64,000 nucleotides of DNA from Enterobacter sp. R4-368 (GTDB lineage: Bacteria; Pseudomonadota; Gammaproteobacteria; Enterobacterales; Enterobacteriaceae), in the NCBI RefSeq assembly GCF_000410515.1, contig NC_021500.1, positions 496,001 through 560,000 of the forward strand, given 5' to 3'. This document shows positions 20,801 to 36,610 of this stretch, one piece after another; position 1 is the first letter of the stretch; the number at the start of each line of letters is the position of its first letter. A program made the translations under genes and the position numbers. A model generated the notes under the pieces. The model was not told the origin of the DNA. It made no database searches and worked only from the letters and a program-made list of their open reading frames with translations.

Positions 20801-21217
20801 TCACAGGCGCTTTACGAGGGTGGTTTTGTTACAGCCACCCTCCCGCTCAACGCTCACGTTATCCACGCTAAGCAACATCAGCATTATCCCCCTGCCACTT
20901 TCCAGCTCCTGCTCCTCGTCGCTGCCAATTTTTCTCCGCGCTTTGCTCAGGCTATCTGGTGAAAGGGCGACGCCATCATCTGTCAACTCGACCTGCACAG
21001 CATCGTTGTGGCAACTGAATGTCACAGAAAATTTGCGGTGGCTGTCTTCGTTTAACGCATGGCGAATAACATTAGTCGCCGCTTCACAAACAGCAAGGTC
21101 GAGCGCAAAGCGCCACGCATCATCAACGGGCAGCGCCGCCATGTTGCGCTGCAACCACTCCGCCAGCGGAGCTAATGCGCCCAACGTAGCCTCAAGGGTA
21201 ATCGCCTCACGCATCAT
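20801..21217 (-). CDS. RsbW/SpoIIAB-type anti-sigma serine kinase-like ATPase
   Basis: A 138-residue HATPase_c protein. The N box is seen as AVCEAATNVIRHAL, the G1 box as VELTDDGVALSP and the G2 region as ESGRGIMLMLLSVD, the pattern of anti-sigma kinases in partner-switching systems. It should bind ATP, phosphorylate the STAS protein encoded just upstream, and sequester an unknown partner when the STAS protein is phosphorylated. The start is the ATG three bases after the STAS stop codon; an ATG directly following it is an alternative. Last gene of the five-gene leftward operon. Confidence 0.82.
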   Translation of the reverse strand: MMREAITLEATLGALAPLAEWLQRNMAALPVDDAWRFALDLAVCEAATNVIRHALNEDSHRKFSVTFSCHNDAVQVELTDDGVALSPDSLSKARRKIGSDEEQELESGRGIMLMLLSVDNVSVEREGGCNKTTLVKRL

Positions 21218-21219
21218 GT

Positions 21220-21558
21220 TTACCTGGCAAGCGCGGCGCAGGCGGCATCGCGGTCTTCGCAGATACGAAACACCCTGTCCATACGCGTCAGAGTGAACAT
21301 ATTGCGGATACCGGGCTTGAGGGCGCAAACCAGCATTTCACCTTTGCCATTCATCATTTTCAGTAACGACACCAGCGTGCCCAGACAGCTACTGTCGATA
21401 AAGTCGACGCGGCTAAAATCGATGATTAACGCTTTCTGCTCATTTGCCATTTCACGTGAGAGCATCTCCCTGAATGTCGCCGCTACCGATGCATCCAGAC
21501 GTCTGACAACCGGCGTCATAATGATGGCCTGCGGCAACCGTTCGATCTCAATATTCAT
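21220..21558 (-). CDS. STAS-domain anti-sigma factor antagonist
   Basis: A 112-residue SpoIIAA/RsbV-like protein. The phosphorylatable serine lies in the conserved loop DFIDSSCLGTLVSLL, preceded by LIIDFSRV. When dephosphorylated by the PP2C domain encoded upstream it should bind the HATPase partner downstream and free that protein's target. The start codon overlaps the end of the phosphatase gene; the second of two in-frame ATGs is preferred because GGAGG lies 8 nt before it. Confidence 0.85.
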   Translation of the reverse strand: MNIEIERLPQAIIMTPVVRRLDASVAATFREMLSREMANEQKALIIDFSRVDFIDSSCLGTLVSLLKMMNGKGEMLVCALKPGIRNMFTLTRMDRVFRICEDRDAACAALAR

Positions 21559-22762
21559 GCCCATCCCCTCCGCGCTCGATAATTAACAACGAAACATCAT
21601 CCGTCATGGTTCTTTCACTCCCGCCGTCATAATTACGCCAGCGCGTCAAATGCTCGCCGAATAACGGCAGCAGCGCCTCAATGGGCTTGCCGGTCTGCTG
21701 CTGTAACCAATGTTGTAAGCGTAATTCACCAAACTGCTCATCGCCTGGCCCTTCACACTCGGTAATGCCATCGCTGAACAGGCACAACCGCTCGCCGTTA
21801 TGCAGACTAAATGCAGTGTCTTCCCACTGCATATCCGGCAGTAACCCGACCGGGGGCCCGCCATTACCCGTCTGGCGGACTTGCCCGTCAGGCGAGACGA
21901 TAAACGGCGTGGGATGCCCGGCCTGGCACAACGTCCCGCTGCCATCTCGCAGGTTAATAACGCCATAAACCATTGTGAAATAGCTGACTATCTCCGTATC
22001 TTCACTGCAAAAACGCGCATTCAGCATCTGCACGACCTTCGCGGGTGACGCCACCTCGCCATGTTCATTAAACAGAAAACGTTCCACCACGCGGCCCTGC
22101 AGAAACTGCCGGGCAACCGCCAGCGACATCATCGCCGCGCCAACGCCATGCCCGGCGACATCAACAAAATAAAACCCAAGATGGCCATCGAGCGGGAACA
22201 CATTAAAGATATCGCCGGAGACCCAGGCAGAAGGCAGAAACAGCCAGTCAGCAAAATAGTGTTCATAGCGCAGTTGATGCGCGGGTAATACCGAACGCTG
22301 CAACCGCGCGGCCACCAGTAAATCCTGCTCTATCTGGTTTAATGCCTCGCTTAAACGTGTATTGTGCGCGGCAAGACTTGCTTCCAGCGCCAGAATGCGC
22401 GCCCCGGCATGTAAACGCGCCTGAAGCTCGCTCTGGTTGACCGGCTTACTGAGAAAATCATCCACGCCTGCGTCAAAGCCTTCGGTAATGTCATCCGCGC
22501 TCTCGCGCGCCGTCAGCAAAATAAGATACACATAGTGACCATACTCAATGTTTCGAATGGCGCGGCACAGCGCCAGGCCATCCATCACCGGCATCTCCCA
22601 GTCGCTGATCACCATACTGACGGGCGTTCGCGCCATCATCGCCAGCGCCTCTTCACCGTTCTCCGCTTCACTCACCTGGTAGCCCCACTGTGAAAGCAGA
22701 TTAACCAGCAAACGGCGATAAACCCGCGAATCATCGACAATCAGTACCCTTTTCTGCTCCAT
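21548..22762 (-). CDS. Receiver-PP2C (RsbU/SpoIIE-type) phosphatase response regulator
   Basis: About 404 residues. The N-terminal receiver domain has VLIVDDS, the phospho-acceptor Asp in VISDWEMP (residue 56 counted from the earlier ATG) and Lys in LSKPVN. A coiled-coil linker (ILALEASLAAHNTRLSEALN) leads to a metal-dependent PP2C phosphatase with VSGDIFNVFPLDG, FYFVDVAGHGVGAA and TMTDDVSLLII, carrying the metal-binding aspartates. It should dephosphorylate the STAS protein when its receiver is phosphorylated, perhaps by the hybrid kinase of the facing operon (inference). The ATG at 22762 has better spacing to AGGAG than the one at 22768. Confidence 0.87.
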   Translation of the reverse strand: MEQKRVLIVDDSRVYRRLLVNLLSQWGYQVSEAENGEEALAMMARTPVSMVISDWEMPVMDGLALCRAIRNIEYGHYVYLILLTARESADDITEGFDAGVDDFLSKPVNQSELQARLHAGARILALEASLAAHNTRLSEALNQIEQDLLVAARLQRSVLPAHQLRYEHYFADWLFLPSAWVSGDIFNVFPLDGHLGFYFVDVAGHGVGAAMMSLAVARQFLQGRVVERFLFNEHGEVASPAKVVQMLNARFCSEDTEIVSYFTMVYGVINLRDGSGTLCQAGHPTPFIVSPDGQVRQTGNGGPPVGLLPDMQWEDTAFSLHNGERLCLFSDGITECEGPGDEQFGELRLQHWLQQQTGKPIEALLPLFGEHLTRWRNYDGGSERTMTDDVSLLIIERGGDGHEY

Positions 22763-22773
22763 CCTCATGGCTC

Positions 22774-23673
22774 CTAAAGCGGTAACAACCAGATAAGGCT
22801 CACCGTGCCTTCCCGGAATCGTGCATTGCCATTTTTATGACCGGGAAAGCGCGTACCGGCGTAGTTGCTGTACTGAATAGAGAGCGAGCCAGGCGCATAG
22901 GTGGCGTAGCCAAAGCTGTAGCTATAATCGCCGTTCCACGGCTGCTGCTGGCTGCTATCAGGGAACCAGAACGCAGTTGCGCGTACGAAAAAGTGCTGTT
23001 TAAGGGTGTAGCCGCAGCCGCCAAGCATGACGTTTTTATTGGCTCTCACGCTGTCGCTTTGCGCGTCGTAGTAGCGCGGCACCCAGCTATAACCGAGCTG
23101 GCAGGTCAGCGCATCGCCTTTATTAATTAAAAGCTTATTTTCAATGGGCTTTGGCAACGAGAACTTATACGCCAGCGTAAACGCCCCCTGCTCAAAATAG
23201 GTGTGCCGTTTACTGCCAGTTGTCCAGAAATGGTTATCGCCGTAGTTACTGTAAACCAGGCTAACGGTGTTCGGGTGCCAGTCGTCATAGCCGAAGCTGT
23301 AGCGAAAATCGGTGGTATAGCGGCTGGTATCCCTGACCGGCATGCGGGTGATGACGTTCGCGAACCAGAAACTGTAGGGGGAATATTGCAGGCTCAGATT
23401 GAGCGTCTGGTTGATTTTTTTGGTTTGCGAGGCCGATTCCGAATTGTTCGGTATTGTTACCCATTGCTGTTTCAGCCCTGAGTTAAAGCTCAACGCCGCA
23501 GAAAATTTATCTTTATTCCCGGCGAACAGACGCCCCCAGCGGCTGTTAATGCCCCCCGCCGGGATCTGCTCGGCGGCTCTCTCCTGCTGACCCGCGTCCT
23601 GGCTATGCTCGGCGGCATACGCTGGCGCAAGACTACCGCACAGGACGACCACCAGCCCTATTTTTTCCCGCAT
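22774..23673 (-). CDS. Outer-membrane beta-barrel protein of unknown function
   Basis: A 299-residue exported protein. The signal peptide is MREKIGLVVVLCGSLAPAYA. The mature part is rich in aromatic residues in alternating patterns (TLNLSLQYSPYSFWFANVITRM, DFRYSFGYDDWHPNTVSLVYSNYG, and a near-copy YSYSFGYATYAPGSLSIQYSNYAG), ending in a terminal strand TVSLIWLLPL, as outer-membrane barrels do. The repeated Y-S-F-G-Y...S-x-x-Y-S-N-Y motif, at least twice, is notable. Placed between the OpgC-type acyltransferase and the phosphatase; a glucan exporter or anchor is an inference. ATG 23673 follows GAGGGA; the TTG at 23688 is less likely. Confidence 0.72.
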   Translation of the reverse strand: MREKIGLVVVLCGSLAPAYAAEHSQDAGQQERAAEQIPAGGINSRWGRLFAGNKDKFSAALSFNSGLKQQWVTIPNNSESASQTKKINQTLNLSLQYSPYSFWFANVITRMPVRDTSRYTTDFRYSFGYDDWHPNTVSLVYSNYGDNHFWTTGSKRHTYFEQGAFTLAYKFSLPKPIENKLLINKGDALTCQLGYSWVPRYYDAQSDSVRANKNVMLGGCGYTLKQHFFVRATAFWFPDSSQQQPWNGDYSYSFGYATYAPGSLSIQYSNYAGTRFPGHKNGNARFREGTVSLIWLLPL

Positions 23674-23684
23674 ATCGTGTTCCC

Positions 23685-24905
23685 TCAATTGGGTATCCAG
23701 CGTCCGGCGACGTTATATTTTGCCATCAGCCATAACGCGCCCAGCGCCAGCGCATGGATCAGCGTGTTGGTCAGCCATGCCTGGCGCCATAAATCGAAGG
23801 TGACAAACTGGCTGACCACCAGCACTACGTACACATGCAAAATGAAGGTGTAGAGCGAGTGCTGCCCCAGCGGGATAAAAAACCAGCCCGTGGCACGGTA
23901 AATCGGCGTCCAGCAACGGGTCAGCACCAGATAAACGGTCACCATCAGGGCGATGTCATTGACCACCCGCACCGGGCCAAGCCCGTTTTTCGCCGCCCAG
24001 GTGTGGTAAAAGGCATTAAAATCGGCGGGCGGGATCACCTGCAACAACAACGCCGGTGGGATAAAGGGATTGGTATGGTTTTGCGCCACAAATCCCAGCA
24101 CTATCGCCACCACCACCAGAGCTGCGACCATGGCTTTTCCCGCGTGCGTTTGTGCGAGCGAAAGCAGTTCCTCTTTGTACCAGCCGCAACACATGCCGAG
24201 CACAAAGATCAGTTGCCAGGCCATCAGCGGAAAGGCGAATTCAAACTCGGAGACCGTGACGCGCATCGGCCACACTTGCCAGCAACAATAAACCGCCAGC
24301 GAGAGCAGCAATAGCCAGACTACTTTTCCGTTATGCAGTAGTCCCAGAAATAATGGGCTTATTAACAGCAGGCAAATATATAATCCCAGAATCTGGGTTT
24401 GATGCGGACCAATTTGCAAATAGAGGATGATATTAAACCAGGTTTCACGTATTTGCGGGCTGGTCGGAAATAATGACCAATGCGTACCTGAGTAACGATC
24501 GGTAAAATGGGTAACTTCAAAGGTATTTATAAAATGCAGATGCGAGAGTAATAGAATAGAAACTATGATGATGATATTAACCTGATATATTTTCCATGCG
24601 CGTCGCCATAATCCCCAGGAAATCGTTAATAACACCGCTTTTTGCAGACGCACGCGATTGAGCATACCGAGCATAAATCCGGAAAGAATGACAAAGCCTT
24701 CCGCGCCGGTTGTCAGACCAAATCGCTCCCACGTAAAAATATTAAAAACCGACATCACTTCCGTATGCGCCACCACCATCATCACCAGCGCCACACCGCG
24801 CATCATATCAATACGTAGATCGCGACGATCGGCTAATACATAACGCCACGTTGTTTTTTCACGGTTTTTCGCTATAGCGACAGGCGCAGACTGGCTTATT
24901 TCCAT
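23685..24905 (-). CDS. OpgC-family membrane acyltransferase
   Basis: A 406-residue polytopic inner-membrane protein with about ten helices. The N-terminal RRDLRIDMMRGVALVMMVVAHTE and TTGAEGFVILSGFMLG blocks are diagnostic of the OpgC domain. OpgC adds succinyl groups to osmoregulated periplasmic glucans in E. coli. E. coli OpgC sits by opgGH, whereas here the partner is a different glycosyltransferase across the divergent promoter, so this copy probably decorates that glycosyltransferase's product. First gene of the leftward operon; its stop is 12 bp before the next start. Confidence 0.85.
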   Translation of the reverse strand: MEISQSAPVAIAKNREKTTWRYVLADRRDLRIDMMRGVALVMMVVAHTEVMSVFNIFTWERFGLTTGAEGFVILSGFMLGMLNRVRLQKAVLLTISWGLWRRAWKIYQVNIIIIVSILLLSHLHFINTFEVTHFTDRYSGTHWSLFPTSPQIRETWFNIILYLQIGPHQTQILGLYICLLLISPLFLGLLHNGKVVWLLLLSLAVYCCWQVWPMRVTVSEFEFAFPLMAWQLIFVLGMCCGWYKEELLSLAQTHAGKAMVAALVVVAIVLGFVAQNHTNPFIPPALLLQVIPPADFNAFYHTWAAKNGLGPVRVVNDIALMVTVYLVLTRCWTPIYRATGWFFIPLGQHSLYTFILHVYVVLVVSQFVTFDLWRQAWLTNTLIHALALGALWLMAKYNVAGRWIPN

Positions 24906-25065
24906 CTCGTAAACGTTGCCCTGAAAAGAGGTTGCGAAGTTAATATTTACATAGCGTAGTACACTCTGACCGGCAAAATGAATCCGCTTCGCCAGATTAT
25001 AAAATATATCCTTAAACAGAAACTCCAGTTAATCAGACGTTACTTAAAGGCAATTGTAGTCATTC

Positions 25066-25093
25066 TTGAAAGTTACCGATGGGGTTCTACAAT
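25066..25093 (+). promoter_or_regulatory. Candidate sigma-70 promoter of the glycosyltransferase operon
   Basis: TTGAAA (25066-25071), a 16-bp spacer, and TACAAT (25088-25093). An inverted pair TTGTAG (25054-25059) and CTACAA (25087-25092) brackets the -35 box and could be an operator. A leader of about 100 nt would follow. The rest of the 293-base gap between the divergent operons is AT-rich with nothing else I can name. Confidence 0.4.
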
Positions 25094-25198
25094 GACTTTA
25101 AAAGCATTTCCCACAGGCTATTAAAAGCAACTCAGATTTATCTTCACGACGCATATTATTCATTTGCGAATGATTAACAGATCAGGATATCTGCGACT

Positions 25199-27013
25199 AT
25201 GGGTTTTTATTTTTCCAGATTTGAAGCGCGTCGCCCGCCAGAACCCCTTTGCACTCCCGGATGGGTAAAAAAGGCATGGCAAATATTGGCGGTGGCGGCG
25301 CTGATTCTGGGGGCAAATTATATTCGCTGGCGCTGGATGGAATCGCTGAATATGGATGCGCTGTGGTACGCCATTCCCCTTGTGCTGGCAGAGACGTTGG
25401 CATGGATTGGTACCGCGTTATTTACCATTAACCTGTGGCAGGAAAAGGATGTACCGGCGCAAAATCCACCGGCAGATATCAACGATTGTCATGGCGCAGA
25501 AGAAGCCATTGATCCCAGGCCAATCAAGGTGGATCTGTTTATTGCCACCTATTCCGAAGATGTCGAGCTGGTGCGCTTATCGATTCGCGACGCGCTTAAC
25601 GTCACCTACCCTTGCCCGCTCGATTACCGCATTCATGTGCTGGATGACGGGCGGCGCGCTGAGATGAAAGCTGTCTGCGATGAAGAAGGCGTCAATTACA
25701 TCACCCGGCAGAACAATATGGGCTACAAAGCCGGAAACCTGCGCAACGGACTGGAGCAGACCGACGGCGACTTTATTGTGATTTGCGATGCCGATACCCG
25801 CGTCTTTCCCACCTTGCTCAGCCATACGCTGGGCTATTTTCGCGATCCGGATGTCGCCTGGGTGCAAACCCCCCAATGGTTTTACGATCTGCCGGAAGGC
25901 GAACGGCTGCCGCGTTGGCTCGCACGCCGGACTGGCAAAGCCGGGTATGCGCTCGGCTGGACGCTGGAAAAAATTTGTGGCCCGGTCACCCTTGGCCGCG
26001 ACCCGTTTTTCAACGATCCGCGCATGTTTTATGATGTCATTTTGCGCCGCCGCAACTGGGCAAATGCCGCGTTTTGCTGCGGTGCAGCGTCAATTCATCG
26101 CCGCGAAGCGGTGATGCAGGCGGCATTGCGCAGCTACGTGTGGAATGTCGATGCCGAAATCGACCGTCATACCCGTGATATTCGCGATCCGGCCATGCGT
26201 GCAGCGCTTCAGGAAGCGATGCGCCCGCATGTGATTTACGACACCGAACTGACGCCGTACAAATTCCACGTCTCGGAAGATATTTATACCTCCATTGTTC
26301 TGCATGGCGACGATGCACATCGCTGGCGTTCAGTCATGCATCCGCGCATCGAATCCAAAATGCTCTCGCCGCAGGATATGCTGACCTGGATGATCCAGCG
26401 CTTTAAATATGCCGCTGGTTCGCTGGATATTCTGTTTCACGACAACATTTTTTCCCGCCGCCGCTTCAAGTTGTCGCTGCCTCAGACGCTGATGTACGCC
26501 ACCACGTTCTGGTCTTATCTCGCCTGTATCTGGAATACCGTATTCCTGATTTCGCCCATTATTTATCTGTTTACCGGCATCCCCCCCGTCTCTGCGTGGT
26601 CCACGCCGTTTTATCTGCATTTCTTACCGTTTTTTATTGTTTCGGAGCTGGCGTTCATGTTTGGGACATGGGGTATTTCCGCCTGGGATGGACGGGCATC
26701 CTATCTCTCTTTTTTCTCGATGAATTTACGCGCCCTCGATACCGTTCTGCGTGGGGAGCAGATCAAATTCCACGTCACGCCCAAAGAGCGCCAGGCCGGG
26801 CGGTTTCTCTACCTTGTGAAGCCGCAAATCGCCATTGTGGTGCTGACACTGCTTGGCCTGCTATGGGGCGGGATTCAGGTGGCGCGCGGCCAGGTGGATG
26901 ACCCTTCAGGTTACGTGATCAACATTTTCTGGGGTGCGGTGAATATTGCCGCCATGCTGCCGCTGATCCTCGCGGCGATGTGGACGCCGCCCGATGAGGA
27001 GCCAACGCCATGA
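25199..27013 (+). CDS. BcsA-like family 2 processive glycosyltransferase
   Basis: A 604-residue inner-membrane enzyme. Two N-terminal helices (residues 26-40 and 55-78) precede the GT-A catalytic domain: D112 in VDLFIATYSED, DDG (149-151), DAD (197-199) binding UDP-metal, TPQ (224-226), the catalytic SED (359-361) and QRFKYAAG (400-407), the counterpart of the QRxRW motif. At least four C-terminal helices follow (about 430-600). These are the marks of processive beta-glycan synthases (cellulose, mixed-linkage glucan, hyaluronan). No PilZ domain is seen, so direct c-di-GMP control as in BcsA is unlikely. No bcsB or bcsC is nearby. Glucan as product is inferred from OpgC and the GH2 neighbour. 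Confidence 0.85.
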   Translation: MGFYFSRFEARRPPEPLCTPGWVKKAWQILAVAALILGANYIRWRWMESLNMDALWYAIPLVLAETLAWIGTALFTINLWQEKDVPAQNPPADINDCHGAEEAIDPRPIKVDLFIATYSEDVELVRLSIRDALNVTYPCPLDYRIHVLDDGRRAEMKAVCDEEGVNYITRQNNMGYKAGNLRNGLEQTDGDFIVICDADTRVFPTLLSHTLGYFRDPDVAWVQTPQWFYDLPEGERLPRWLARRTGKAGYALGWTLEKICGPVTLGRDPFFNDPRMFYDVILRRRNWANAAFCCGAASIHRREAVMQAALRSYVWNVDAEIDRHTRDIRDPAMRAALQEAMRPHVIYDTELTPYKFHVSEDIYTSIVLHGDDAHRWRSVMHPRIESKMLSPQDMLTWMIQRFKYAAGSLDILFHDNIFSRRRFKLSLPQTLMYATTFWSYLACIWNTVFLISPIIYLFTGIPPVSAWSTPFYLHFLPFFIVSELAFMFGTWGISAWDGRASYLSFFSMNLRALDTVLRGEQIKFHVTPKERQAGRFLYLVKPQIAIVVLTLLGLLWGGIQVARGQVDDPSGYVINIFWGAVNIAAMLPLILAAMWTPPDEEPTP

Positions 27014-28341
27014 GAATGCGCGATGCGCTGCTGAACGCCCGCAGTTATATCACCATCCTGCTCGGTTTCCTGTTGGGCTTTGCCATCGTCGTTTGGGTGG
27101 AACGCCAGATGCCTACCCGCGTAGAGAGCACGTCAGGTCTGGCGCTGAGCAAAGCGTTTCCGCCGTTGCCCACCACGCGCGACTTAACCTTTAACGAAGC
27201 GATCTGGGCGCGGGTCGCCTGGCAATATTATGTCAATAACACCCAGCCAAACGGCCTGGCTAACGCCCGCGACGCCGAACCGTGGTTCAGCTTATGGAGC
27301 ACCGGCAGCTATCTCTTCGCTGCCATGGCCGCACAGCGTCTGGACATTATCACCACCGGAGAGTTTGACGAGCGCATCACTGCCGCGCTGTTCAGCCTCG
27401 GTCAGTTACCCCTTAATGCGCAGGGAATACCCGCCAGTTATTACCACGCCGATACGCTGAAAATCCTCGGCAAGGCGGAGAGTTCTGCCATCGGCATGGG
27501 ACGCTTGCTGACGGCGCTGCAAACCCTGCTTTGGCACTACCCGCAGCACGCGGCGGAAATCCGTGATCTGTTTAATCAGTGGCAGACCGGCGCGCTGATT
27601 GAACGCGGCGAAACCACCCGCGCCTCACTGCCGGTACATCACTGGACACTGGCGACAGATGAACCGCGTAACAGCTTTGGTTACCGCCTGTACGCCAGCC
27701 ACACGCTGCGTCTTATTGACAACGATGCGGGGCTAGCCGTCACCAATCCGCCGGAAGGCCAGGCGATGATTGATATTGACGGCGTTATGGTGCCCGACGA
27801 AGGGCTGCGCACGCCGTGGGGACGCCAGCCGTCGCTGGTGAGCCTGCCCTATTTGCTCACCGGACTGGAGACCGGTTTTGACGCGCAAAGCGCGGAGATC
27901 GCCTGGCGCATTATGCAAATTCAGCAGCGCCGCCACAGCTTGCAGGTTCGTAAACCACCCATCAGCACCGATTATGCCGAGCCCGCGCCCGAATATGTTA
28001 CCGAGCAGCCAAACCGCCAGCCGGACAATCAGAGCAGCGTCAGCAACGCTCCGCCAGAGCAGCGCGCTATCACCTCCACCCGCTCGGCGTTTGCGTGGTA
28101 CGCCCTGTTTCGTAACACCTGGAGTGAAGCCCTGCGCGAACAGGTATTGACGTTGCAGGTTCCGGGTAAAGGCTGGCAGCAAGGGCTTAACCTCAACGCC
28201 AGTGTGAATAACGTTATTGACGCCGACACCAACGCCATCGTGCTTGAAAGCCTTTCGTTTATCGCGCACGGCCAGATGCTGTGCCTGAGCTGTATGAACA
28301 CCACCGCCCGTCCAACCCCAGCAGCAGGAGCCACGCCATGA
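27010..28341 (+). CDS. DUF3131 protein 1 (membrane-anchored)
   Basis: A 443-residue protein, anchored by an N-terminal helix (SYITILLGFLLGFAIVVWVE) with the rest periplasmic. The DUF3131 pattern starts ARVAWQYYVNNTQP and is shared by the next two genes; a FGYRLYASHTLRL segment, then LVSLPYLLTGLETGFD, recur in the paralogues. It is the most diverged of the three, with a Pro/Gln-rich insert (about residues 320-355) that the others lack. DUF3131 has no established function; an all-helical toroid acting on glycans, like the cyclic glucan synthase processing domains, is my inference. Start overlaps the glycosyltransferase stop by 4 bp. Confidence 0.75.
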   Translation: MRMRDALLNARSYITILLGFLLGFAIVVWVERQMPTRVESTSGLALSKAFPPLPTTRDLTFNEAIWARVAWQYYVNNTQPNGLANARDAEPWFSLWSTGSYLFAAMAAQRLDIITTGEFDERITAALFSLGQLPLNAQGIPASYYHADTLKILGKAESSAIGMGRLLTALQTLLWHYPQHAAEIRDLFNQWQTGALIERGETTRASLPVHHWTLATDEPRNSFGYRLYASHTLRLIDNDAGLAVTNPPEGQAMIDIDGVMVPDEGLRTPWGRQPSLVSLPYLLTGLETGFDAQSAEIAWRIMQIQQRRHSLQVRKPPISTDYAEPAPEYVTEQPNRQPDNQSSVSNAPPEQRAITSTRSAFAWYALFRNTWSEALREQVLTLQVPGKGWQQGLNLNASVNNVIDADTNAIVLESLSFIAHGQMLCLSCMNTTARPTPAAGATP

Positions 28342-29885
28342 AGTTGATTTGTTTGACGCTTTTCCGCCGGTGGGCTGGCATTGTGGCTCTCGGGCTGGTA
28401 ATGACCAGCGCCCAGGCCGCGCCGGGGTTGCCCGCGTCCGACTATCCGGTGCGCAGCGGCACGTTGACGGCACAGGAGATGAAGATCGCGAAAAACGCCT
28501 GGCAATACTTTGTCGCAAACTATCAGCCCACCACCGGGTTGGTGAACGCGGTTAATAAATACCCCTCCACCACCATGTGGGACAGCGCCTCCTATCTGGC
28601 CGCGCTGACGGCGGCGCGTGAACTGGGCATTATTGATAAAGCCGAGTTTGACCGGCGGTTAATCAAATTCCTCGCCACCCTCAATACCATCCAGTTGTTT
28701 CGCAATGAACTGCCCAACAAGGTCTACAACACCATCAACGCGCAGAAAGTGGACTACCTGAACAAACCCGGCGAGATTGGCTTCTCCGCGCTGGATATTG
28801 GCCGCATGCTGCTGTGGATGAAAATTATCAAAGAACGTTATCCGGAGTACGCCAACAGTATTGATAACGTCGTTCTGCGCTGGGATTTCAGCCATGTGGT
28901 CGACGGTTGCGGCACGCTGTATGGCGCGTATCTGGAGAACGGCCAGCCGAAATATGTTCAGGAGGGACGCCTGGGGTATGAAGAGTACGCCTCGGCGGGT
29001 TACCAGCTTTGGGGTTTTAATACCTGCCAGGCCAGCCGTCCGCAACCGTACGATCTGGCGGAGATCTACTGCGTGCTGGTGCCGTATGACTCGCGCGACT
29101 CGCGCCGTACCTTTCAGCATAACTACGTGGTGACAGAATCATATCTGCTGTATGGCCTGGAGATGGGCTTTGATACCGCCGACGATCGCAGTAACACAAA
29201 AAACCACTATTCACATCCGTGGATGAAAAACTTCGCTGATCGCGTGTATCAAGCGCAGGAGAACCGCTACACCATTACCGGCATGCTGACAGCCCGCTCC
29301 GAGCATCAACTGGATAAAGCGCCTTACTTTGTTTACGACACGGTGTTCAGTGACGGCTTCAACTGGAACACCATTACCGACAAAGGCCAGTACGTGCCGG
29401 AAACCGCCGCCGTATCGCTAAAAGCCGCGCTGGGCATGTGGGTGCTGTGGAATTCGCCCTACACCGATCGGTTATTAAGCGTTATCGAAAACGCCAACGA
29501 AGAGGGCAAAGGCTACTACGAAGGGCTGTATGAGAACGGCAGCGGGCCGATTAAAGAGTTCACCGCCAACAACAACGGCATCATGCTTGAAGCCCTGATG
29601 TTTAAAAAGAGCGGCAAGCTGCTGCGCTTTAATACCGACAATCCGAAAGACAAGAATTTCGCCCCCTCGCTGTGGGAGAAAAAACTGGTCGATCTGTTTG
29701 AAGAAAACAATACCCGGCGCAACCGCCCGTTCCTGAACCCGACGTCCGCCGTGAAAAGCTGGTGTGAGCGGACCGGCACGGCCCTGCGCACAAAATCCAG
29801 TTGTCAGGCATGCCAGTGCGCGTCCTGTAAAGCGGACGAGCCGGTGAAATTACCCCCGGTGGCGGCGTCATGCTTAAAACAGTAA
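28338..29885 (+). CDS. DUF3131 protein 2 (secreted, Cys-rich tail)
   Basis: A 515-residue exported protein. Signal peptide MKLICLTLFRRWAGIVALGL and following residues, cut near SAQA-APG. The DUF3131 domain begins AKNAWQYFVANYQPTTGLVN, then TTMWDSASYLAALTAARELG, and ends near NNNGIMLEALMFKKSGKLL. Acidic residues in VYDTVFSDGFNWN and the YYEGLYENG segment are shared with paralogue 3 and are candidate active-site positions. The last 45 residues hold six cysteines (WCERTGT, then a CQACQCASC cluster, SCLKQ), absent from the paralogues: a metal site or disulphide knot. ATG 28338 overlaps the previous gene. Confidence 0.75.
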   Translation: MKLICLTLFRRWAGIVALGLVMTSAQAAPGLPASDYPVRSGTLTAQEMKIAKNAWQYFVANYQPTTGLVNAVNKYPSTTMWDSASYLAALTAARELGIIDKAEFDRRLIKFLATLNTIQLFRNELPNKVYNTINAQKVDYLNKPGEIGFSALDIGRMLLWMKIIKERYPEYANSIDNVVLRWDFSHVVDGCGTLYGAYLENGQPKYVQEGRLGYEEYASAGYQLWGFNTCQASRPQPYDLAEIYCVLVPYDSRDSRRTFQHNYVVTESYLLYGLEMGFDTADDRSNTKNHYSHPWMKNFADRVYQAQENRYTITGMLTARSEHQLDKAPYFVYDTVFSDGFNWNTITDKGQYVPETAAVSLKAALGMWVLWNSPYTDRLLSVIENANEEGKGYYEGLYENGSGPIKEFTANNNGIMLEALMFKKSGKLLRFNTDNPKDKNFAPSLWEKKLVDLFEENNTRRNRPFLNPTSAVKSWCERTGTALRTKSSCQACQCASCKADEPVKLPPVAASCLKQ

Positions 29886-31276
29886 GCCGCAAAACCCTGG
29901 CCGCGCTGCTCGGTTTCTTGCTGGTTGCGCTGGCGCTGCTCGCCCTTGTTAAAGATGGCGGCGCAGGCTGGCGCTGGCTGAGCAAAGGCGGCTGGAACAC
30001 CAGCGCCCGAATCAGTGCCCTGACCCCGGAGGAGCGCCAGTGGGCGCAAACAGCGTGGCGCTACTTCGTTAACAATACCCAGCCGCAAACCGGGCTGGTC
30101 AACGGCAGCGATAAACAGCCCCGCGCCACGCTCTGGCAGATGGGCGACACGCTAATTGCCCTGCTGGCCGCCAGGGAACTGGGGCTTTTGAAAGAGGAGG
30201 AGTTCGATCATCGGCTGACGCAACTGCTCGGCACGCTGAACCGCCTCGCGCTGACCGATACCCGCACACCGGGCCGCCTCTACGCCACGCCAAACGCCTC
30301 GCTGGTGGATTTTAGCGGTCAGACGCAGCGAAACGGCTGGTCGGCGCGGGATATGGCGCGCCTGATGCTGGCCTTACGCCTCGTCAGCGAATGGGCGCCG
30401 CAATACCAGGAGTATCTGGATAAAATCGTTCTGCGCTGGAACTTCTGCCCGGTTATCGATCCCCACGGCGAACTCTGGTCCTCCTCCATTGAGAATGGCA
30501 AACCGGTGATCCGCGAGGAGCTGCGGCTCGGCGAAAGCGAATACGCGGCCACCGCCTTTCGTTTATGGGGTTTTGCGCCAGACCAGGCTTTCACGCCGCC
30601 CGCACGCAACGTGATCATCCACCAGCGGACGCTGGAAGTGGATGCCCGCGACCCGCGCACCACCTGGCAACCCTCGCTCATCTCCACACTGCCTTACATG
30701 CTGCCAGGGCTGGAGTTCGGCTGGCAACCGCCGGGCGTAGAGCGCGCCACACGCAAGGCGTTACGTGAGCGGGCCAAACAGGTGTGGCTCACCCAACAAA
30801 CGCGGTGGGAAAAAGAGAAAGTGCTTACCGCCAGGGCCGACTTCGCGCTTGGCCAGGCTCCGTGGCATGTTGACGACACGGTGTGGGGCAATGGTTACGC
30901 CTGGAACACACTGGGTGCCGACGGGAAATACTATCCGCGTCTGGCGCAGGTTTCCACCAAAGCGGTTTTCGCCCTTTGGGTGCTGTGGGACACCCCCTTT
31001 ACCGATGCGCTAATGAATGTCAGCCGACGGATGAACGATGCACAGCGCGGCTGGTTTGAAGGTCGGGTAGAAGCCACAGGCGACTTTAACCGAACGATCA
31101 CCCTGTCAACTAACGCCATGGTGCTGGAAAGCTTGTTTTATAAGGCACACGGCGGCCCACTATTCCGCAATGGATTAATCGATAACGGCAGCTATTTCTA
31201 CCTGCAGGCGACTGATGTTTTCAGCGCGCCGGGACTCTGCTTACCCGGCGAGCGCCGGGTGGAGATGAAAAAATGA
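29870..31276 (+). CDS. DUF3131 protein 3 (membrane-anchored)
   Basis: A 468-residue protein with an N-terminal anchor (TLAALLGFLLVALALLALV) and a periplasmic DUF3131 domain: TAWRYFVNNTQPQTGLVNG, LWQMGDTLIALLAARELGLL, the ENGKPVIREELRLGESEYAA block, LPYMLPGLEFGW, VDDTVWGNGYAWNTLG and FNRTITLSTNAMVLESLFYKA. It is clearly closer to paralogue 2 than to 1. Its start lies 16 bp inside the end of the preceding gene, so translation is coupled. Function unknown; same inference as for its paralogues. Confidence 0.75.
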   Translation: MLKTVSRKTLAALLGFLLVALALLALVKDGGAGWRWLSKGGWNTSARISALTPEERQWAQTAWRYFVNNTQPQTGLVNGSDKQPRATLWQMGDTLIALLAARELGLLKEEEFDHRLTQLLGTLNRLALTDTRTPGRLYATPNASLVDFSGQTQRNGWSARDMARLMLALRLVSEWAPQYQEYLDKIVLRWNFCPVIDPHGELWSSSIENGKPVIREELRLGESEYAATAFRLWGFAPDQAFTPPARNVIIHQRTLEVDARDPRTTWQPSLISTLPYMLPGLEFGWQPPGVERATRKALRERAKQVWLTQQTRWEKEKVLTARADFALGQAPWHVDDTVWGNGYAWNTLGADGKYYPRLAQVSTKAVFALWVLWDTPFTDALMNVSRRMNDAQRGWFEGRVEATGDFNRTITLSTNAMVLESLFYKAHGGPLFRNGLIDNGSYFYLQATDVFSAPGLCLPGERRVEMKK

Positions 31277-31710
31277 AATTTTACCGCGATCTTTTTGAAG
31301 CCAGTCTGGGCCGCGTGTTCCCGCAGGATGACAAAAAGCCCTTTTTCAATGCTTTTTATGACGCCTTTGTGCGCATGTCGCCGGAAACCGAACGCCACTT
31401 TTTGCTCGGTAACGCCGAGCAAGGCCGCCAGCTTATATTTAAGAGCTTTTTTGCCATGCTGGCGGTGGATGGCTCCCTCTTCGTGCCCGATTTTCTGGAA
31501 AAACTTGCCCGCGACCAGAGCGACAGCGGCTTGCACTTGCCGCCCCGCTTTTTCGCCCTCTGGCGGCAAGCCATGCTTGATACCGTGCGCCAGCGCGATC
31601 CCCTGTGCGATGAAGAGATCCTTACCGCCTGGGCTATGGCGATAGCGCCTGGACTGGAATATCTTCGCCGTCAGGCGGAGCTGCACTACCAGGCGGGAGC
31701 GCAATCATGA
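31273..31710 (+). CDS. Globin-like protein without the proximal histidine
   Basis: A 145-residue all-helical protein. The pattern FFNAFYDAFVRMSPETERHF, then IFKSFFAMLAV, then FLEKLARDQ, PPRFFALWRQAMLDTVRQRDP and LTAWAMAIAPGLEYLRR follows bacterial single-domain globins. In those, the haem-ligating His sits in an LAxxH segment; here it reads LARDQ, with Gln82 in its place. It may therefore bind no haem, like the non-haem globin domain of RsbR, or use another ligand. It overlaps both neighbours by 4 bp and directly precedes a hybrid kinase, so a signalling role is likely. By eye only; the fold call needs a profile search. Confidence 0.6.
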   Translation: MKFYRDLFEASLGRVFPQDDKKPFFNAFYDAFVRMSPETERHFLLGNAEQGRQLIFKSFFAMLAVDGSLFVPDFLEKLARDQSDSGLHLPPRFFALWRQAMLDTVRQRDPLCDEEILTAWAMAIAPGLEYLRRQAELHYQAGAQS

Positions 31711-34412
31711 CCGCCGCCTCGCGCTTCGACCTCAACGCGCTACCGATTGCGGTGATGTGGTATGACGCGCAAGAACGACTGGTGGCGTGGAATGACAAAA
31801 TCGGCCAGTTTTACCCGTCGCTGGCCACCCGCCTGCAACCCGGTGTCACGCTGGAAGCGTTAGCCAGCCAGTTTATCGATACCGCCTTCAATACCGATCC
31901 TGCCCGGCGACAGGCGCTAAAAGAGTCGGTAATCCGCAACTGTCGGCTGGAAAGCCACTACGAGGTACGTCATCAAGGAGAACGACGCCTGTTTGTTCAA
32001 CATCAGCGTTTACCCGATGGCGGCATCATCAGCCTGCATACGGACATTTCACACCTCGATATGGCGCAGCGCGCACGCCAGGATCTGCACGCTGACTTTT
32101 TGCTGGCCGCGGAGTCGATTCATATCGGGATCTGGGACTGGCAAGTCTCGCCGGATATCCTCCAGCTCAGCGATACGCTGTTAAGCCTGGTGGGGCAACC
32201 GCGCGACAGTTGGCACCATAATGTCAACGCCATGCTTGGGCTGGTGCATCCGGCGGATCGCTTTCACCTGATCCGCACCGTGCTGCGCTCCCGCGCGCAC
32301 CATTTTCCGGTGTTTGAATGCGAAATCCGTGTCCGTTATAAGCAGGATCAGTGGCGCTGGATGCTGCTCTCCGGCCAGGTTACCACCCTGAATTTGAGCG
32401 GCGCAATGGAGCGCGTGATTGGCACATTGCAGGATATCAACCGCCGCAAAGAAGCAGAGCTGCTCGCCATTGAAGCGGCCCATGTCGCCAGACAAGCGAA
32501 CGAAGCCAAAAGCGCGTTTCTCGCCAATATGAGCCATGAAATCCGCACGCCAATGAACGGTATTCTCGGCATGACGCAACTGTGCCTTGAAACCCCGCTG
32601 AGCGCCGAACAGCGCGAATACCTGACGCTGGTGATGAGCTCGGCGCAATCTTTATTGCATATTATCAATGACATTCTCGACTTCTCGAAAATCGAAGCCG
32701 GGAAGATCCTGATTCATGACGAGGCGCTGGAGATACGCCCGTTTATCCAGTCGCTGATCCGCCCGCATATGCCTGCCGCCAGCGAAAAAGGGGTGGAACT
32801 GCTGGTCGATATTGACCCGCGTTTGCCAGAGGTGGTGCGAGGCGATAGCGTGCGACTGCGCCAGATCCTGACCAATCTCATCAGCAACGCGCTGAAATTT
32901 ACCCACCACGGTGAGGTATTGCTCGGAATTGAACCCGCCGGCAACGGCTCCCAGTGGCGGTTTCGGGTGCGCGATAGCGGCATTGGTATTCCCCCGGATA
33001 AACAGCAACTGATTTTCGAAGCGTTCAGCCAGGCGGACAGCTCCACCACACGCCGCTATGGCGGCACCGGGCTGGGGCTGACCATCTCCGCGCGGCTGGT
33101 GGCGATGATGGGGGGAAATTTAACGGTGACCAGTACGCCGGGCGTTGGGAGTGAGTTCGCCTTCACCCTGCCGCTGGCAAACTTGCCCGTGAGCGAAATG
33201 ACAACGACAGAAGCGCACCAGTTTCACGGTGAACGGGTGCTGGTCGTCGATGATAACGCCACCAACTTACGCTTGCTGGAGGCCAAACTGACCGCCATGG
33301 GGCTGACGCCGGTCTGTATCAACAAACCGCTGGAAGCGCTGGCGCTGGCGGCGCAAATGCCGCCGTTTCCGCTGATCCTGCTGGATGCGCAAATGCCGGA
33401 TATGGACGGCATCTCACTGGCGCTGGAACTCTCGGTGCTACCGGAAGCCAGCCAGAGCCGCATTATTATGCTCAGTTCCATGAATCGTCATTTCGACAGG
33501 AATATGCTCAAGCGCATTGGCATTGCGCACTATCTGCATAAACCGGTCGATCACAGCGAGTTGCAACAGGCTATCGCCTCCCTGTTGTTGCCGGTCAGCG
33601 TACCCACGCCCGCGCCCACGGTCAGCCCGGCAGCAGAACCCGCCGCTGCGCCGCCACCACGGCAGCAGAGCCTGCATGTTCTGCTGGCAGAAGATAACCT
33701 CGTCAACCAAAAGCTGGCCTACCGGCTGCTTGAGCAGCTTGGGCATCGCTGCGAAATCGTCGCCGATGGCCAGGCCGCGCTTGAGCACTGGCAGGCCAGC
33801 CGTTGGGATGTGATTCTGATGGATCTGCAAATGCCGGGCATGGACGGTGAAACGGCTATTCGTCTGCTGCGAGAAGAAGAAGCCCGGCGCGGTGTGCCGC
33901 CACAGCGGGTGATCGCCATGACCGCCCATGCCATGCAGGGCGACAAAGCGCGCTGCTTCGAACTGGGTTTTGATGGCTATATCGCCAAACCCGTCACGCG
34001 TGAGGCATTGAATGCGGAACTGACCCGCGTAGTGGGAACCCCCTCGCCCCACGCCGCAGCGCAAATGGCAGCGGGAATGCCCAACGAAAGCGCCCTGCTT
34101 GAACAACTGGGCGGCGACAGGGCGCTACTGAACGAACTTATGACCATTTTCAGGGAAGGCCTGATGGAGCTCAGCGACGCCATTGAACAGGCGGTACGCT
34201 CCGGCGATCGCGAAACCGTGCGCCGCAGCGCTCATAAGTTGCGCGGAGAAGCCATCGCGCTTGATTTCCGGAGCCTGAGCCAGGTTCTCCAACAACTGGA
34301 AAGCCAGTCGCAAAGCCTGAGCGACGCGGAACTGGCGCGCCTGCTTGCGCCACTGCAACATGAGCGCCAGCACGCGCTCAACTGGTTACAAACGCGGGAG
34401 GCCTCATCATGA
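31707..34412 (+). CDS. BarA-like hybrid sensor kinase (PAS-PAS-HisKA-HATPase-REC-REC-HPt)
   Basis: A 901-residue soluble-looking kinase with no transmembrane segment. Order: a PAS domain (residues 1-115, IAVMWYDAQERLVAWND), a second PAS/PAC domain (about 130-250), HisKA with His277 in FLANMSHEIRTPMNG, HATPase with N box (NLISNALKFTHHG) and GTGLGLTIS, a first receiver (Asp560 in LLDAQMPDMDG), a second receiver (Asp706 in LMDLQMPGMDG) and an HPt domain with His843 in RRSAHKLRGEA. Lacking an own membrane sensor, it may read a cytosolic cue, perhaps through the globin-like protein encoded just before it. The HPt could pass phosphate to the receiver-phosphatase of the facing operon (inference). 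Confidence 0.87.
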   Translation: MTAASRFDLNALPIAVMWYDAQERLVAWNDKIGQFYPSLATRLQPGVTLEALASQFIDTAFNTDPARRQALKESVIRNCRLESHYEVRHQGERRLFVQHQRLPDGGIISLHTDISHLDMAQRARQDLHADFLLAAESIHIGIWDWQVSPDILQLSDTLLSLVGQPRDSWHHNVNAMLGLVHPADRFHLIRTVLRSRAHHFPVFECEIRVRYKQDQWRWMLLSGQVTTLNLSGAMERVIGTLQDINRRKEAELLAIEAAHVARQANEAKSAFLANMSHEIRTPMNGILGMTQLCLETPLSAEQREYLTLVMSSAQSLLHIINDILDFSKIEAGKILIHDEALEIRPFIQSLIRPHMPAASEKGVELLVDIDPRLPEVVRGDSVRLRQILTNLISNALKFTHHGEVLLGIEPAGNGSQWRFRVRDSGIGIPPDKQQLIFEAFSQADSSTTRRYGGTGLGLTISARLVAMMGGNLTVTSTPGVGSEFAFTLPLANLPVSEMTTTEAHQFHGERVLVVDDNATNLRLLEAKLTAMGLTPVCINKPLEALALAAQMPPFPLILLDAQMPDMDGISLALELSVLPEASQSRIIMLSSMNRHFDRNMLKRIGIAHYLHKPVDHSELQQAIASLLLPVSVPTPAPTVSPAAEPAAAPPPRQQSLHVLLAEDNLVNQKLAYRLLEQLGHRCEIVADGQAALEHWQASRWDVILMDLQMPGMDGETAIRLLREEEARRGVPPQRVIAMTAHAMQGDKARCFELGFDGYIAKPVTREALNAELTRVVGTPSPHAAAQMAAGMPNESALLEQLGGDRALLNELMTIFREGLMELSDAIEQAVRSGDRETVRRSAHKLRGEAIALDFRSLSQVLQQLESQSQSLSDAELARLLAPLQHERQHALNWLQTREASS

Positions 34413-36610
34413 AACGTTACACCGTCACGTGCTTATTGTTTTTGTCAGCCTTCACCCAGGCGCATCCGACGCCGGTGAGCTGGTCGTTGGCGGGGCAATG
34501 GCGTGTGCATGATGCCAATCAGGCTGAATTTGACGGCATTCGCGCACCTGTCGGCGACTGGCGAAAATTAACGGTTCCGGCCAACTGGTATTCAGCCGGG
34601 TACGATCACCAGGGGGCAATGTGGTATCGACACGACTTCACCCTGCCCGCTCTTGCCCCGGATACGCTGGCTACACTGGTGTTTGACGGAGTGGATTACT
34701 ATGCCGATGTCTCGCTCAACGGCCAGCACCTGGCGCGGCACGAAGGGTACTTCCAGCGTTTTGCCGTCGATATTACCGACACAGTACGTCGCCATAATCG
34801 CCTGGCGGTGCGCGTCGACAGCCCATATGAAGATCCGAAAACGCTCTGGCCGCTGCACAAAAAGCTGATCAAAGGCGTGCTAAATCAGCACGACACCCGC
34901 CCAGGTGGCGCCTGGTCACCGCACGGTCAGGATGCCAACTCTGGCGGCATCTGGTCGCCGGTGCGTCTGCATCTGAGCCGGGGCGCCGTGATCGGCGAGA
35001 TTATTCTGCGCCCGGACTGGCAAAACGGCCTGGCGAACCCTGCCTTACGCGCAGAGATCCGCTACCGGTCGCGCAACCGCGGGCCCGCAACGCTGAAGCT
35101 GCTTGCCGAACCCGCGAATTTTAACGGTCGTGCATTCCGCCTTGAACAGGCTGTGACCCTGAATGCCACCGGCGGGGAAACCGCAACGATGACGGTGACG
35201 CTGCCCATGGCAGGCGCAAAGCTCTGGTGGCCCGCCAGTCTGGGTAAACCGAATCTCTACCAGGTGCGTGTCACCCTCGCGGACGATCGCGGCGTAATGG
35301 ATAGCGCTAAAAGCCGAACCGGGCTGCGTAAGGTAGAAGAACAAGCGGATAACCGTGGCTGGCTTATTAATGAAAAACGGCTGTTTATCAAAGGAACCAA
35401 CTACATCGGTTCGCCGTGGTTGAGCACCATGGACGCGGAGAAATATCGGCGCGATCTGCGCATGGTGCTGGCAATGAACGCCAACGCTATTCGCGTGCAT
35501 GGTCATGTAGCCAACCGCCCGCTTTACCAGGTTGCCGACGAACTGGGGCTGATGCTCTGGCAGGATGTGCCGCTGCAATGGGGATATGACGACAGCGCGG
35601 CCTTTGCCGATAACGCCGCGCGACAAACCCGCGAGATGGTCGAGCAGTTTGGCAATTCGCCGTCCATCATCGTCTGGGGCGGGCATAACGAACCGCCGTG
35701 GAACTCCCCCTGGATGGAAAAACGCTTTCCCGACTGGCATAAAGATCTGAACCAAACGCTGACCGCGCGCGTGGCAGACACGCTGGCCGAAGATAATTCG
35801 CGGATCGTACATCGTTTTTCCGCCGTCGAAGAGCACTACTGGCAAGGCTGGTATTTCGGCGTGATGCGCGATCTGCTCGCCCCGGCGAAAACCGGCATTA
35901 TCACCGAGTTTGGCGCGCAAGCGCTGCCGCGCCTTGCCACACTGAAAACCATTATTCCCGCTTCACTACTGTGGCCTGCAACCACGGCGGCGGACGATGC
36001 TGGCTGGGTGAAATGGAAATACCATAACTTCCAGCCATTTCAGACCTTTAAATTTGCCAACATACCGCGCGGCGAAGATCTGCAAACGTTTATTGAAAAT
36101 ACCCAGCAATACCAGGCGCAGCTTGTCGCGATGGCGGCGGAAAGCTATCGTCGTCAACGCTATCAGCCTGTGACTGCCCTGTTCCAGTTCATGTTTGTCG
36201 AAACCTGGCCGTCGATAAACTGGGGCGTGGTGGATTATTTACGCCATCCGAAAGCCGGGTATTACGCACTGCAAAAAGCCTATCAGCCGTTGTTACCCTC
36301 CATTGAACCGGTCAGCGCGCAGTGGCAGCGCGGAAAACCCGCCACGCTACGTCTGTGGGCGGTAAATGATACCTATACCCCCTGCGAAGATTGCACGCTG
36401 AAATGGCAAGTGACACAGCACAACCGCCCGCTTTTGACCGGGCAAAAACAGCAGACGCTGGCGGTGGATAGCGGCGTGAAAATTGCCGATCTGACGGTGA
36501 CGCCTGACAGTACCGGAGTGCTGACGGTGACTTATCACATCTTCGATGCAACAGGAAAAAAAGTGGCGGAAAACGCCTGGCAAACGGAGGTCGGTGAGGC
36601 CACAAACTGA
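34409..36610 (+). CDS. Exported GH2 family glycosidase
   Basis: A 733-residue periplasmic enzyme. Signal peptide MKRYTVTCLLFLSAFTQA. The GH2 sugar-binding jelly roll (residues about 28-180, with WYRHDFTLP and DYYADVSLNGQHLARHEGYF) and Ig-like domain precede the TIM barrel, with acid/base Glu428 in VWGGHNEPP and nucleophile Glu500 in IITEFGAQ. A C-terminal beta domain has a CEDC motif. The family covers beta-mannosidases, beta-galactosidases and beta-glucuronidases; the exact bond is not readable. Last gene of the rightward operon, it probably trims or recycles the glycan made by that operon. Confidence 0.83.
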   Translation: MKRYTVTCLLFLSAFTQAHPTPVSWSLAGQWRVHDANQAEFDGIRAPVGDWRKLTVPANWYSAGYDHQGAMWYRHDFTLPALAPDTLATLVFDGVDYYADVSLNGQHLARHEGYFQRFAVDITDTVRRHNRLAVRVDSPYEDPKTLWPLHKKLIKGVLNQHDTRPGGAWSPHGQDANSGGIWSPVRLHLSRGAVIGEIILRPDWQNGLANPALRAEIRYRSRNRGPATLKLLAEPANFNGRAFRLEQAVTLNATGGETATMTVTLPMAGAKLWWPASLGKPNLYQVRVTLADDRGVMDSAKSRTGLRKVEEQADNRGWLINEKRLFIKGTNYIGSPWLSTMDAEKYRRDLRMVLAMNANAIRVHGHVANRPLYQVADELGLMLWQDVPLQWGYDDSAAFADNAARQTREMVEQFGNSPSIIVWGGHNEPPWNSPWMEKRFPDWHKDLNQTLTARVADTLAEDNSRIVHRFSAVEEHYWQGWYFGVMRDLLAPAKTGIITEFGAQALPRLATLKTIIPASLLWPATTAADDAGWVKWKYHNFQPFQTFKFANIPRGEDLQTFIENTQQYQAQLVAMAAESYRRQRYQPVTALFQFMFVETWPSINWGVVDYLRHPKAGYYALQKAYQPLLPSIEPVSAQWQRGKPATLRLWAVNDTYTPCEDCTLKWQVTQHNRPLLTGQKQQTLAVDSGVKIADLTVTPDSTGVLTVTYHIFDATGKKVAENAWQTEVGEATN

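Follow-up and report, generated by a model that had tools for sequence, protein, structure and literature searches.

What product does a compact, divergent locus with a BcsA-like synthase, three DUF3131 proteins and a partner switch serve, and how might its output be controlled? The question is raised by 12 open reading frames (ORFs) at 20801-36610 of a 64,000-nucleotide stretch of Enterobacter sp. R4-368 (NC_021500.1, positions 496,001 to 560,000), referred to here as the window. We read the locus, with somewhat better than even confidence, as an accessory cassette, spread horizontally, that serves a dedicated synthase-dependent glucan. Its genes probably make a sugar polymer, trim it and decorate it, and the three DUF3131 proteins look related to enzymes that cleave or cyclise beta-1,2-glucans. 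The polymer is likely derived from UDP-glucose and processed by the second DUF3131 protein (the three copies are called D1, D2 and D3 below).

Organization and distribution of the cassette

All 12 ORFs are present with the domains that an earlier note on this DNA had named. They form two divergent, tightly packed operons, with five genes on the reverse strand (leftward) and seven on the forward strand (rightward). The leftward Pfam domains are HATPase_c_2, STAS, receiver-SpoIIE/PP2C and OpgC_C. The rightward operon encodes a family 2 glycosyltransferase (GT2), three DUF3131 copies (PF11329; 218.2, 430.8 and 317.5 bits, in order), a PAS-PAS-HisKA-HATPase-2xREC-HPt kinase and GH2 domains. With ATG 28338, its most likely start codon, as the start of the middle DUF3131 gene, the reported 4-16 bp overlaps of the rightward genes are reproduced (4, 4, 16, 4, 4 and 4 bp). 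The leftward junctions are overlaps or gaps of a few bp, depending on the start codon assumed. The intergenic region between the operons (24906..25198, 37.5% GC) contains two promoter-like matches, compared with a mean of 0.8 (sd 0.8) in shuffled sequences. The left-hand neighbour of the cassette is tehA, and glgX-treY lie to its right. PF11329 has three matches in the 5.16-Mb genome, all within the cassette, and matched none of the 14 control genomes. Because the family is confined to this locus and conservation of the block spans orders, the cassette is more than a chance assembly of genes.

The two operons co-occur, as the earlier note had expected. In 198 Enterobacteriaceae genomes, drawn evenly and including the genome of the window, D2 relatives were found in 12, the GT2 (E<=1e-60) in 12 and the OpgC-type gene (E<=1e-20) in 13, and the identical 12 genomes hold all three genes. 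Among the 11 relatives fetched, eight carry all 12 genes within the stretch, seven of them in the order of the window and one (L039) rearranged. L038 is without the globin gene, L040 is also without it and has its OpgC gene just beyond the stretch, and in L041 a contig end truncates the locus. Within the short flanks of these relatives, tehA was matched in none, and glgX/treY were seen in L041 alone. In the 13th genome with an OpgC-type match (G176, C1:788392-788861), OpgC is reduced to two short fragments, one of which contains a stop, and neither the GT2 nor D2 has a match. A cassette that was lost appears to have left these fragments behind.

Plasmids also carry these genes. Among the best 25 of 496 plasmid records matched by the GT2, 17 show identities of at least 54.8%, and the next stands at 31.1%. 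Fifteen of the 17 also have DUF3131 matches (among the 15 DUF3131 plasmid matches listed), and 11 records from Salmonella, Pantoea and Chimaeribacter have three DUF3131 places each among the matches listed. The 215-kb Salmonella enterica plasmid CP053577.1 (L189) carries all 12 genes in the order of the window, adjoining ccdAB. The scattered co-occurrence and the full block on this plasmid indicate, at the level of sequence, that the 12 genes are one accessory cassette that has spread between replicons, in the sense of past spread rather than present-day self-transfer. A 2026 population study of Klebsiella pneumoniae ties an accessory 'block 3b' to a population cline; its genes include a cellulose synthase, three DUF3131 proteins, OpgC, a hybrid kinase, and an anti-sigma factor with its antagonist (PMC12974863). 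We take block 3b to be the same cassette, equating the two by gene list and not by sequence. The description of the locus as undescribed therefore stands for its function, within the literature searched, but not for its gene content, which is listed in that study.

The system extends beyond the family. We scanned 80 loci (L074-L153), the best 80 of 584 confirmed D2 relatives and biased to close ones, with profiles built from the cassette; the span of 10 kb on either side and contig ends hide some genes. One badly frameshifted assembly (L106) belongs to the 80 and was omitted from the globin, catalytic-residue and motif counts. All 80 loci have the GT2, and 77 have three or more DUF3131 matches; the receiver-PP2C, STAS and HATPase genes occur in 73 each. 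Other components were less constant: a relative of the barrel-like protein lies near 68 loci, followed by the kinase (51), GH2 (50), a nucleotidylyltransferase (41), OpgC (36), the globin (18) and GH16 (13). The core, consisting of the GT2, three DUF3131 proteins and the three switch proteins, reaches Vibrio, Shewanella, Burkholderiales and further groups. Loci of Vibrio, Shewanella and Photobacterium are usually arranged as receiver-PP2C, STAS, nucleotidylyltransferase, HATPase, in some cases GH2, GT2 and three DUF3131 genes. For Shewanella piezotolerans WP3, a network study places a module with DUF3131 (swp_2164, 2165, 2169 and 2170) under salt shock (PMC8371737). All three switch genes were present in 70 of the 75 loci that are not cut by a contig end. 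A Thermoanaerobaculia locus among the 75 has no STAS gene.

A processive synthase apart from bcs and opgGH

The GT2 gene (25199..27013, forward strand) encodes a processive synthase whose best Protein Data Bank (PDB) match is BcsA (profile E 5.5e-51). It keeps the DDG, DxD and ED motifs of processive GT2 enzymes (77-78 of 78 sequences) and the FxVTxK gating loop, which it shares with bcs synthases. However, it differs from them in that Pfam gave no PilZ match at E<=0.001, the QxxRW position reads QRFKY (Q, R, K and Y in 78/78, F in 77/78), and other bcs subunits were not found in the cassette. The QxxRW Trp of BcsA forms a stack with the acceptor glucose (PMC6821405), and the Tyr in its place here may matter for linkage. 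The GT2 shares 24.6-26.0% identity with the BcsA proteins of its own genome and scores 193.3 bits against the BcsA model TIGR03030, below the curated cut-off of 699.1. By BLAST (E<=10), it does not match the 852-aa protein encoded next to opgG, which is presumably OpgH. Three bcsA genes above the CelA cut-off lie elsewhere in the genome (G000, C2:2059804, 2776577 and 2791522), as do two MdoG-family (PF04349) genes. The proposal of a self-contained glycan locus distinct from bcs and opgGH is thus upheld. As a side observation, a Burkholderia GT2 of 919 aa (L104, 5819-8578) is extended at its N-terminus by a long segment that Pfam does not match, and it adjoins a 2147-aa kinase frame.

The locus could also be a variant cellulose-type exopolysaccharide locus, in which the GT2 would make a beta-1,4-glucan and the DUF3131 proteins would replace the BcsZ endoglucanase. 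The closest solved relatives of the GT2 are BcsA structures, the gating loop is kept, and Foldseek lists BcsZ (9b87) for D2 with an E value of 3.4e-4. Set against the QRFKY motif and the missing PilZ domain and bcs subunits, these points leave this explanation improbable in our judgement.

Fold and putative active site of the DUF3131 proteins

D1 (27010..28341; PF11329 E 2.2e-64) and D3 (29870..31276; E 1.5e-94) have N-terminal hydrophobic anchors at residues 9-32 and 5-34, respectively, and D2 (28338..29885) has an N-terminal signal-like segment; all three are on the forward strand. Because they carry signal or anchor segments, the DUF3131 proteins are probably periplasmic. The earlier note had proposed comparing their predicted structures with the GH144, GH162 and GH189 folds. 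The model of D2 shows the (alpha/alpha)6-barrel of the SGL clan (GH144/162/189/192-194), at 9-13% identity to enzymes of this clan. In a truncated model (36-326), the pLDDT falls to 46 and 35 in the last two blocks of ten.

Two carboxylates probably link D2 to the clan. In residue numbers counted from ATG 28338, D153 (in SALD) is paired with the SAVD motif of cyclic-glucan synthases (CGS) in a profile-profile block, which places an acidic residue at the position of the general-base candidate (CpSGL E142, Cgs D1104). E216 (in LGYEEY) was likened to GH144 GYNE and CGS SEARL by eye and not by superposition; the general-acid reference residues are CpSGL E211 and TiCGS E1356. In Agrobacterium Cgs, D1104 is the counterpart of CpSGL E142, and E1300 is that of CpSGL E211 (PMC10901819). 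These two Cgs residues are 196 positions apart (PMC10901819), compared with 63 between D153 and E216, and the helical insertion between alpha4 and alpha5 of GH189 is absent in D2.

The three copies differ at these positions. Residues were counted by copy order after the GT2, restricted to ORFs of 380-700 aa or to matches that span most of the profile, and the 88 second, 89 first and 83 third copies include duplicates because some genomes occur twice. D153, E216 and E322 are present in all 88 second copies. At position 216, the first copy has Glu in 36/89, Leu in 36, Gln in 16 and Thr in 1, and D1 of the window has Leu, so that its putative general acid is lost. The third copy has Glu in 68/83, Gln in 10, Asp in 4 and Ala in 1, with the putative general acid kept in D3 of the window, and 80 of the 83 have Asp (45) or Glu (35) at position 322. 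The DUF3131 proteins are likely to be novel carbohydrate-active proteins, in line with the earlier suggestion of novel catalysts. However, they are not equivalent, since only D2, which we predict to be active, is invariant at the putative catalytic residues. The fold, and probably the two carboxylates, relate D2 to the SGL clan. On model and alignment we would assign it neither to GH189 nor to another GH family, and its reaction may be hydrolysis or transfer.

Group 4 of the SGL clan is not DUF3131, as PgSGL4 has beta-propeller and carbohydrate-binding domains (PMC12102758). Protein P0080, in which DUF3131 is joined to HPt, looks like the product of a deletion that fused D2 to the kinase gene, and it was not used. 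Elsewhere in the same phylum, divergent DUF3131 domains form the C-terminus of longer proteins (L058, L059 and L061), whose N-terminal part looks, by eye only, like a polysaccharide deacetylase. In a Vibrio locus (L129, 12654-13628) and a Shewanella locus (L131, 12645-13580), D3 is directly followed by an ORF of 311-324 aa, for which Pfam gave nothing convincing in the Vibrio case.

A further possibility is that the cassette is a split cyclic-glucan synthase. The BcsA-like GT2 would be paired with separate periplasmic SGL-type DUF3131 transglycosylases, a new GH family, which would cut and cyclise or branch the chain in trans before acylation, and an RsbW-type kinase would gate the GT2 directly and post-translationally. 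Cgs is one chain of about 2800 aa, whereas the cassette has separate proteins. The soluble domains of Cgs are cytoplasmic (PMC10901819), in contrast to the probably periplasmic DUF3131 proteins, and the cassette has neither a GH94 match nor the insertion of about 120 residues. The GT of the cassette differs from that of Cgs in resembling BcsA. We regard this more specific scheme as unlikely.

Tailoring enzymes and the nature of the polymer

The OpgC-type membrane acyltransferase (23685..24905, reverse strand; PF10129 E 8.4e-51, 173.4 bits against a gathering cut-off of 21.4) is the sole OpgC_C match in the genome. The adjacent gene (22774..23673, reverse strand) encodes a secreted protein of barrel-like composition, a hypothetical route for export. 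It has no Pfam match up to E 1 and was not confirmed as a barrel; its Vibrio counterpart has a PLA1 match below the cut-off (21.5 vs 27 bits).

The GH2 glycosidase (34409..36610, forward strand; Pfam GH2 domains) has an N-terminal signal-like segment, and both catalytic Glu residues are present in 48/48 sequences (48 of the 50 GH2 proteins were examined). GH2 and GH16 are mutually exclusive in the 80 loci (GH2 in 50, GH16 in 13, neither in 17, both in none), as if either one were able to do the trimming. The nucleotidylyltransferase of the distant loci bears on the sugar donor. The Vibrio fluminensis protein matches a solved UTP-glucose-1-phosphate uridylyltransferase with an E value of 2.2e-122, and the next entry follows at 4e-33; among the 25 NCBIfam matches listed, none gives it a name above the cut-off. 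From this match, we argue for UDP-glucose as the donor. A supply of GDP-mannose was considered and is weakened by the same pair of values.

The enzymes could instead point to a polymer that is not a pure glucan (a mannan, a glucomannan or another heteropolymer), with a beta-mannosidase-like GH2 enzyme for its trimming. The best PDB match of the GH2 protein is indeed a beta-mannosidase (5n6u, E 1.1e-36), and the nucleotidylyltransferase also resembles mannose-1-phosphate guanylyltransferases. However, its match to the uridylyltransferase is far stronger, and the 13 loci without GH2 that carry GH16 have a beta-glucanase match. We consider a mannose-containing polymer a doubtful, rather improbable outcome.

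The globin-like protein (31273..31710, forward strand) has no Pfam match. In the PDB, nothing but the globin-like PA3967 (1tu9, E 3.2e-6) matches it at E<=0.001, and we take it to be a globin-fold relative of PA3967. Oxygen sensing is not supported here, as Gln replaces what we take to be the proximal haem-ligating His of PA3967. This column has His in 2/27 aligned sequences and another state in 25/27, with some genomes counted twice. To judge from these alignments, the protein and its relatives may be non-haem globins.

Partner switch and hybrid kinase

The leftward operon contains an RsbW-like HATPase_c_2 protein of the serine-kinase/anti-sigma type (20801..21217; PF13581 E 3.6e-21), a STAS protein of the anti-sigma-antagonist type (21220..21564; PF01740 E 1.2e-16) and a receiver-PP2C (SpoIIE) phosphatase (21548..22768; PF00072 and PF07228), all on the reverse strand. 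The HATPase is the best HATPase_c_2 match of the genome (75.4 bits; next 33.2). Its N-box Glu and Asn are present in 72/72 relatives, and the STAS DSS motif is likewise present in 72/72. The PP2C Asp residues are conserved in 61/61 and the receiver Asp in 60/61 (61 of 73 phosphatases were examined). Judged by these motifs, the residues of an RsbU/V/W-type partner switch are intact. The PAS-PAS hybrid histidine kinase (31707..34412, forward strand), with two receivers and an HPt domain, is predicted to be soluble; no hydrophobic segment was found in it. Its phospho-acceptor His is present in 33/33 and the HPt His in 29/33, with four gaps (33 of 51 kinases were examined).

RsbW/RsbV-type pairs are best known for the control of transcription. 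The switch could therefore act through a sigma factor or regulator and leave the synthase untouched, which we rate somewhat below an even chance. Targets are often unknown in reviewed STAS-only systems (PMC8256260). No sigma factor was found by Pfam among the 12 cassette genes, which argues against transcriptional control. Gene order tells differently in different groups. Outside Enterobacterales, the HATPase gene directly precedes the GT2 gene in 29/49 loci, and only GH2 lies between them in 14 more (43/49). In contrast, the two are adjacent in only 4/31 Enterobacterales loci and apart in the other 27, and in the window the HATPase gene closes the leftward operon, some 4 kb away from the GT2. 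A fused HATPase-GT2 protein (P0236) was rejected as strong evidence, since it is the sole such case among 120 listed of 4143 relatives. Because of the adjacency outside Enterobacterales and this one fusion, the GT2 would be the simplest candidate target of the switch, although the case is weak.

Proposed pathway and its relation to known systems

The favoured reading, a dedicated synthase-dependent glucan, would work as follows. The inner-membrane GT2 would polymerise UDP-glucose and move the chain into the periplasm in a BcsA-like manner. The OpgC-type protein would acylate the polymer, and GH2, or GH16 in some relatives, would trim it. The soluble kinase would feed the receiver-PP2C/STAS/HATPase partner switch through HPt, and the switch would turn synthesis on or off, most simply via the HATPase acting on the synthase. 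We infer here the identity and linkage of the polymer, the type of reaction, the acylation site, the target of the switch and its control by a signal.

Several observations weigh against this reading. The evidence consists of sequence and predicted structure, and substrate, product and activity are all predicted. Homology of DUF3131 to CGS is confined to the N-terminal third, and the C-terminal profile gave nothing significant (CGS E 0.21, GH144 E 0.08), so the C-terminal part rests on the model. The alignment sets had retained wrong-frame ORFs, namely four CGS frames and, in the C-terminal comparison, three GH144 sequences. The clan-defining Phe (XcSGL F286; His in GH162) is found at the position matched by motif, without superposition, in only 1/12 (position 259), and either E322 or A319 of D2 could be the equivalent of the GH189 nucleophile (TiCGS E1442). 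Hints to the polymer conflict, as the SGL clan points to beta-1,2, GH16 (in 13 loci) to beta-1,3/1,4 and GH2 to beta-mannosidases. No exporter was identified in the cassette. Three Edwardsiella loci and one Serratia locus among the 75 are without the whole switch. As for horizontal spread, PLSDB types CP053577.1 as IncFIB and non-mobilizable, and 22 of 25 plasmids with DUF3131 are also typed as non-mobilizable. The N-terminal limit of the homology and the enteric gene order, which gives no support to direct gating, lower our confidence.

The cassette resembles several known systems in part. Compared with the SGL beta-1,2-glucanases (GH144, GH162 and GH192-194), DUF3131 is remote in sequence and does not conserve the clan Phe, and it is not among the seven SGL groups of PMC12102758 as far as the text of that paper was compared. 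The 'orphan' NdvB of pseudomonads, a proposed cyclic beta-1,3-glucan synthase, also combines a BcsA-like GT2 with a periplasmic glycan-processing domain (PMC10237404). However, a GH17 TIM barrel is fused to its GT2, whereas the cassette supplies an SGL-type barrel in trans. With opgGH/opgC, it shares the OpgC-type acyltransferase but not an MdoG gene. The syp locus and other polysaccharide loci under partner-switch control likewise have STAS and serine kinase/phosphatase proteins beside polysaccharide genes (PMC8256260); the cassette differs from them in that its HATPase, phosphatase and STAS are separate proteins, encoded next to a synthase system with a single GT2.

Significance

Across the phylum, 36 of 398 sampled genomes have a DUF3131 match, or 21 without the 15 that have matches only inside frames of the 2,800-aa class. 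For this domain of unknown function, the predicted fold offers a function. The cassette defines a putative polymer system that is scattered across enterics, resides on some plasmids and, if block 3b is the same cassette, is linked to a cline in Klebsiella pneumoniae (PMC12974863). It opens to experiment the questions of whether D2 acts on beta-glucans, what the GT2 produces, and whether a partner switch may directly gate a polysaccharide synthase.

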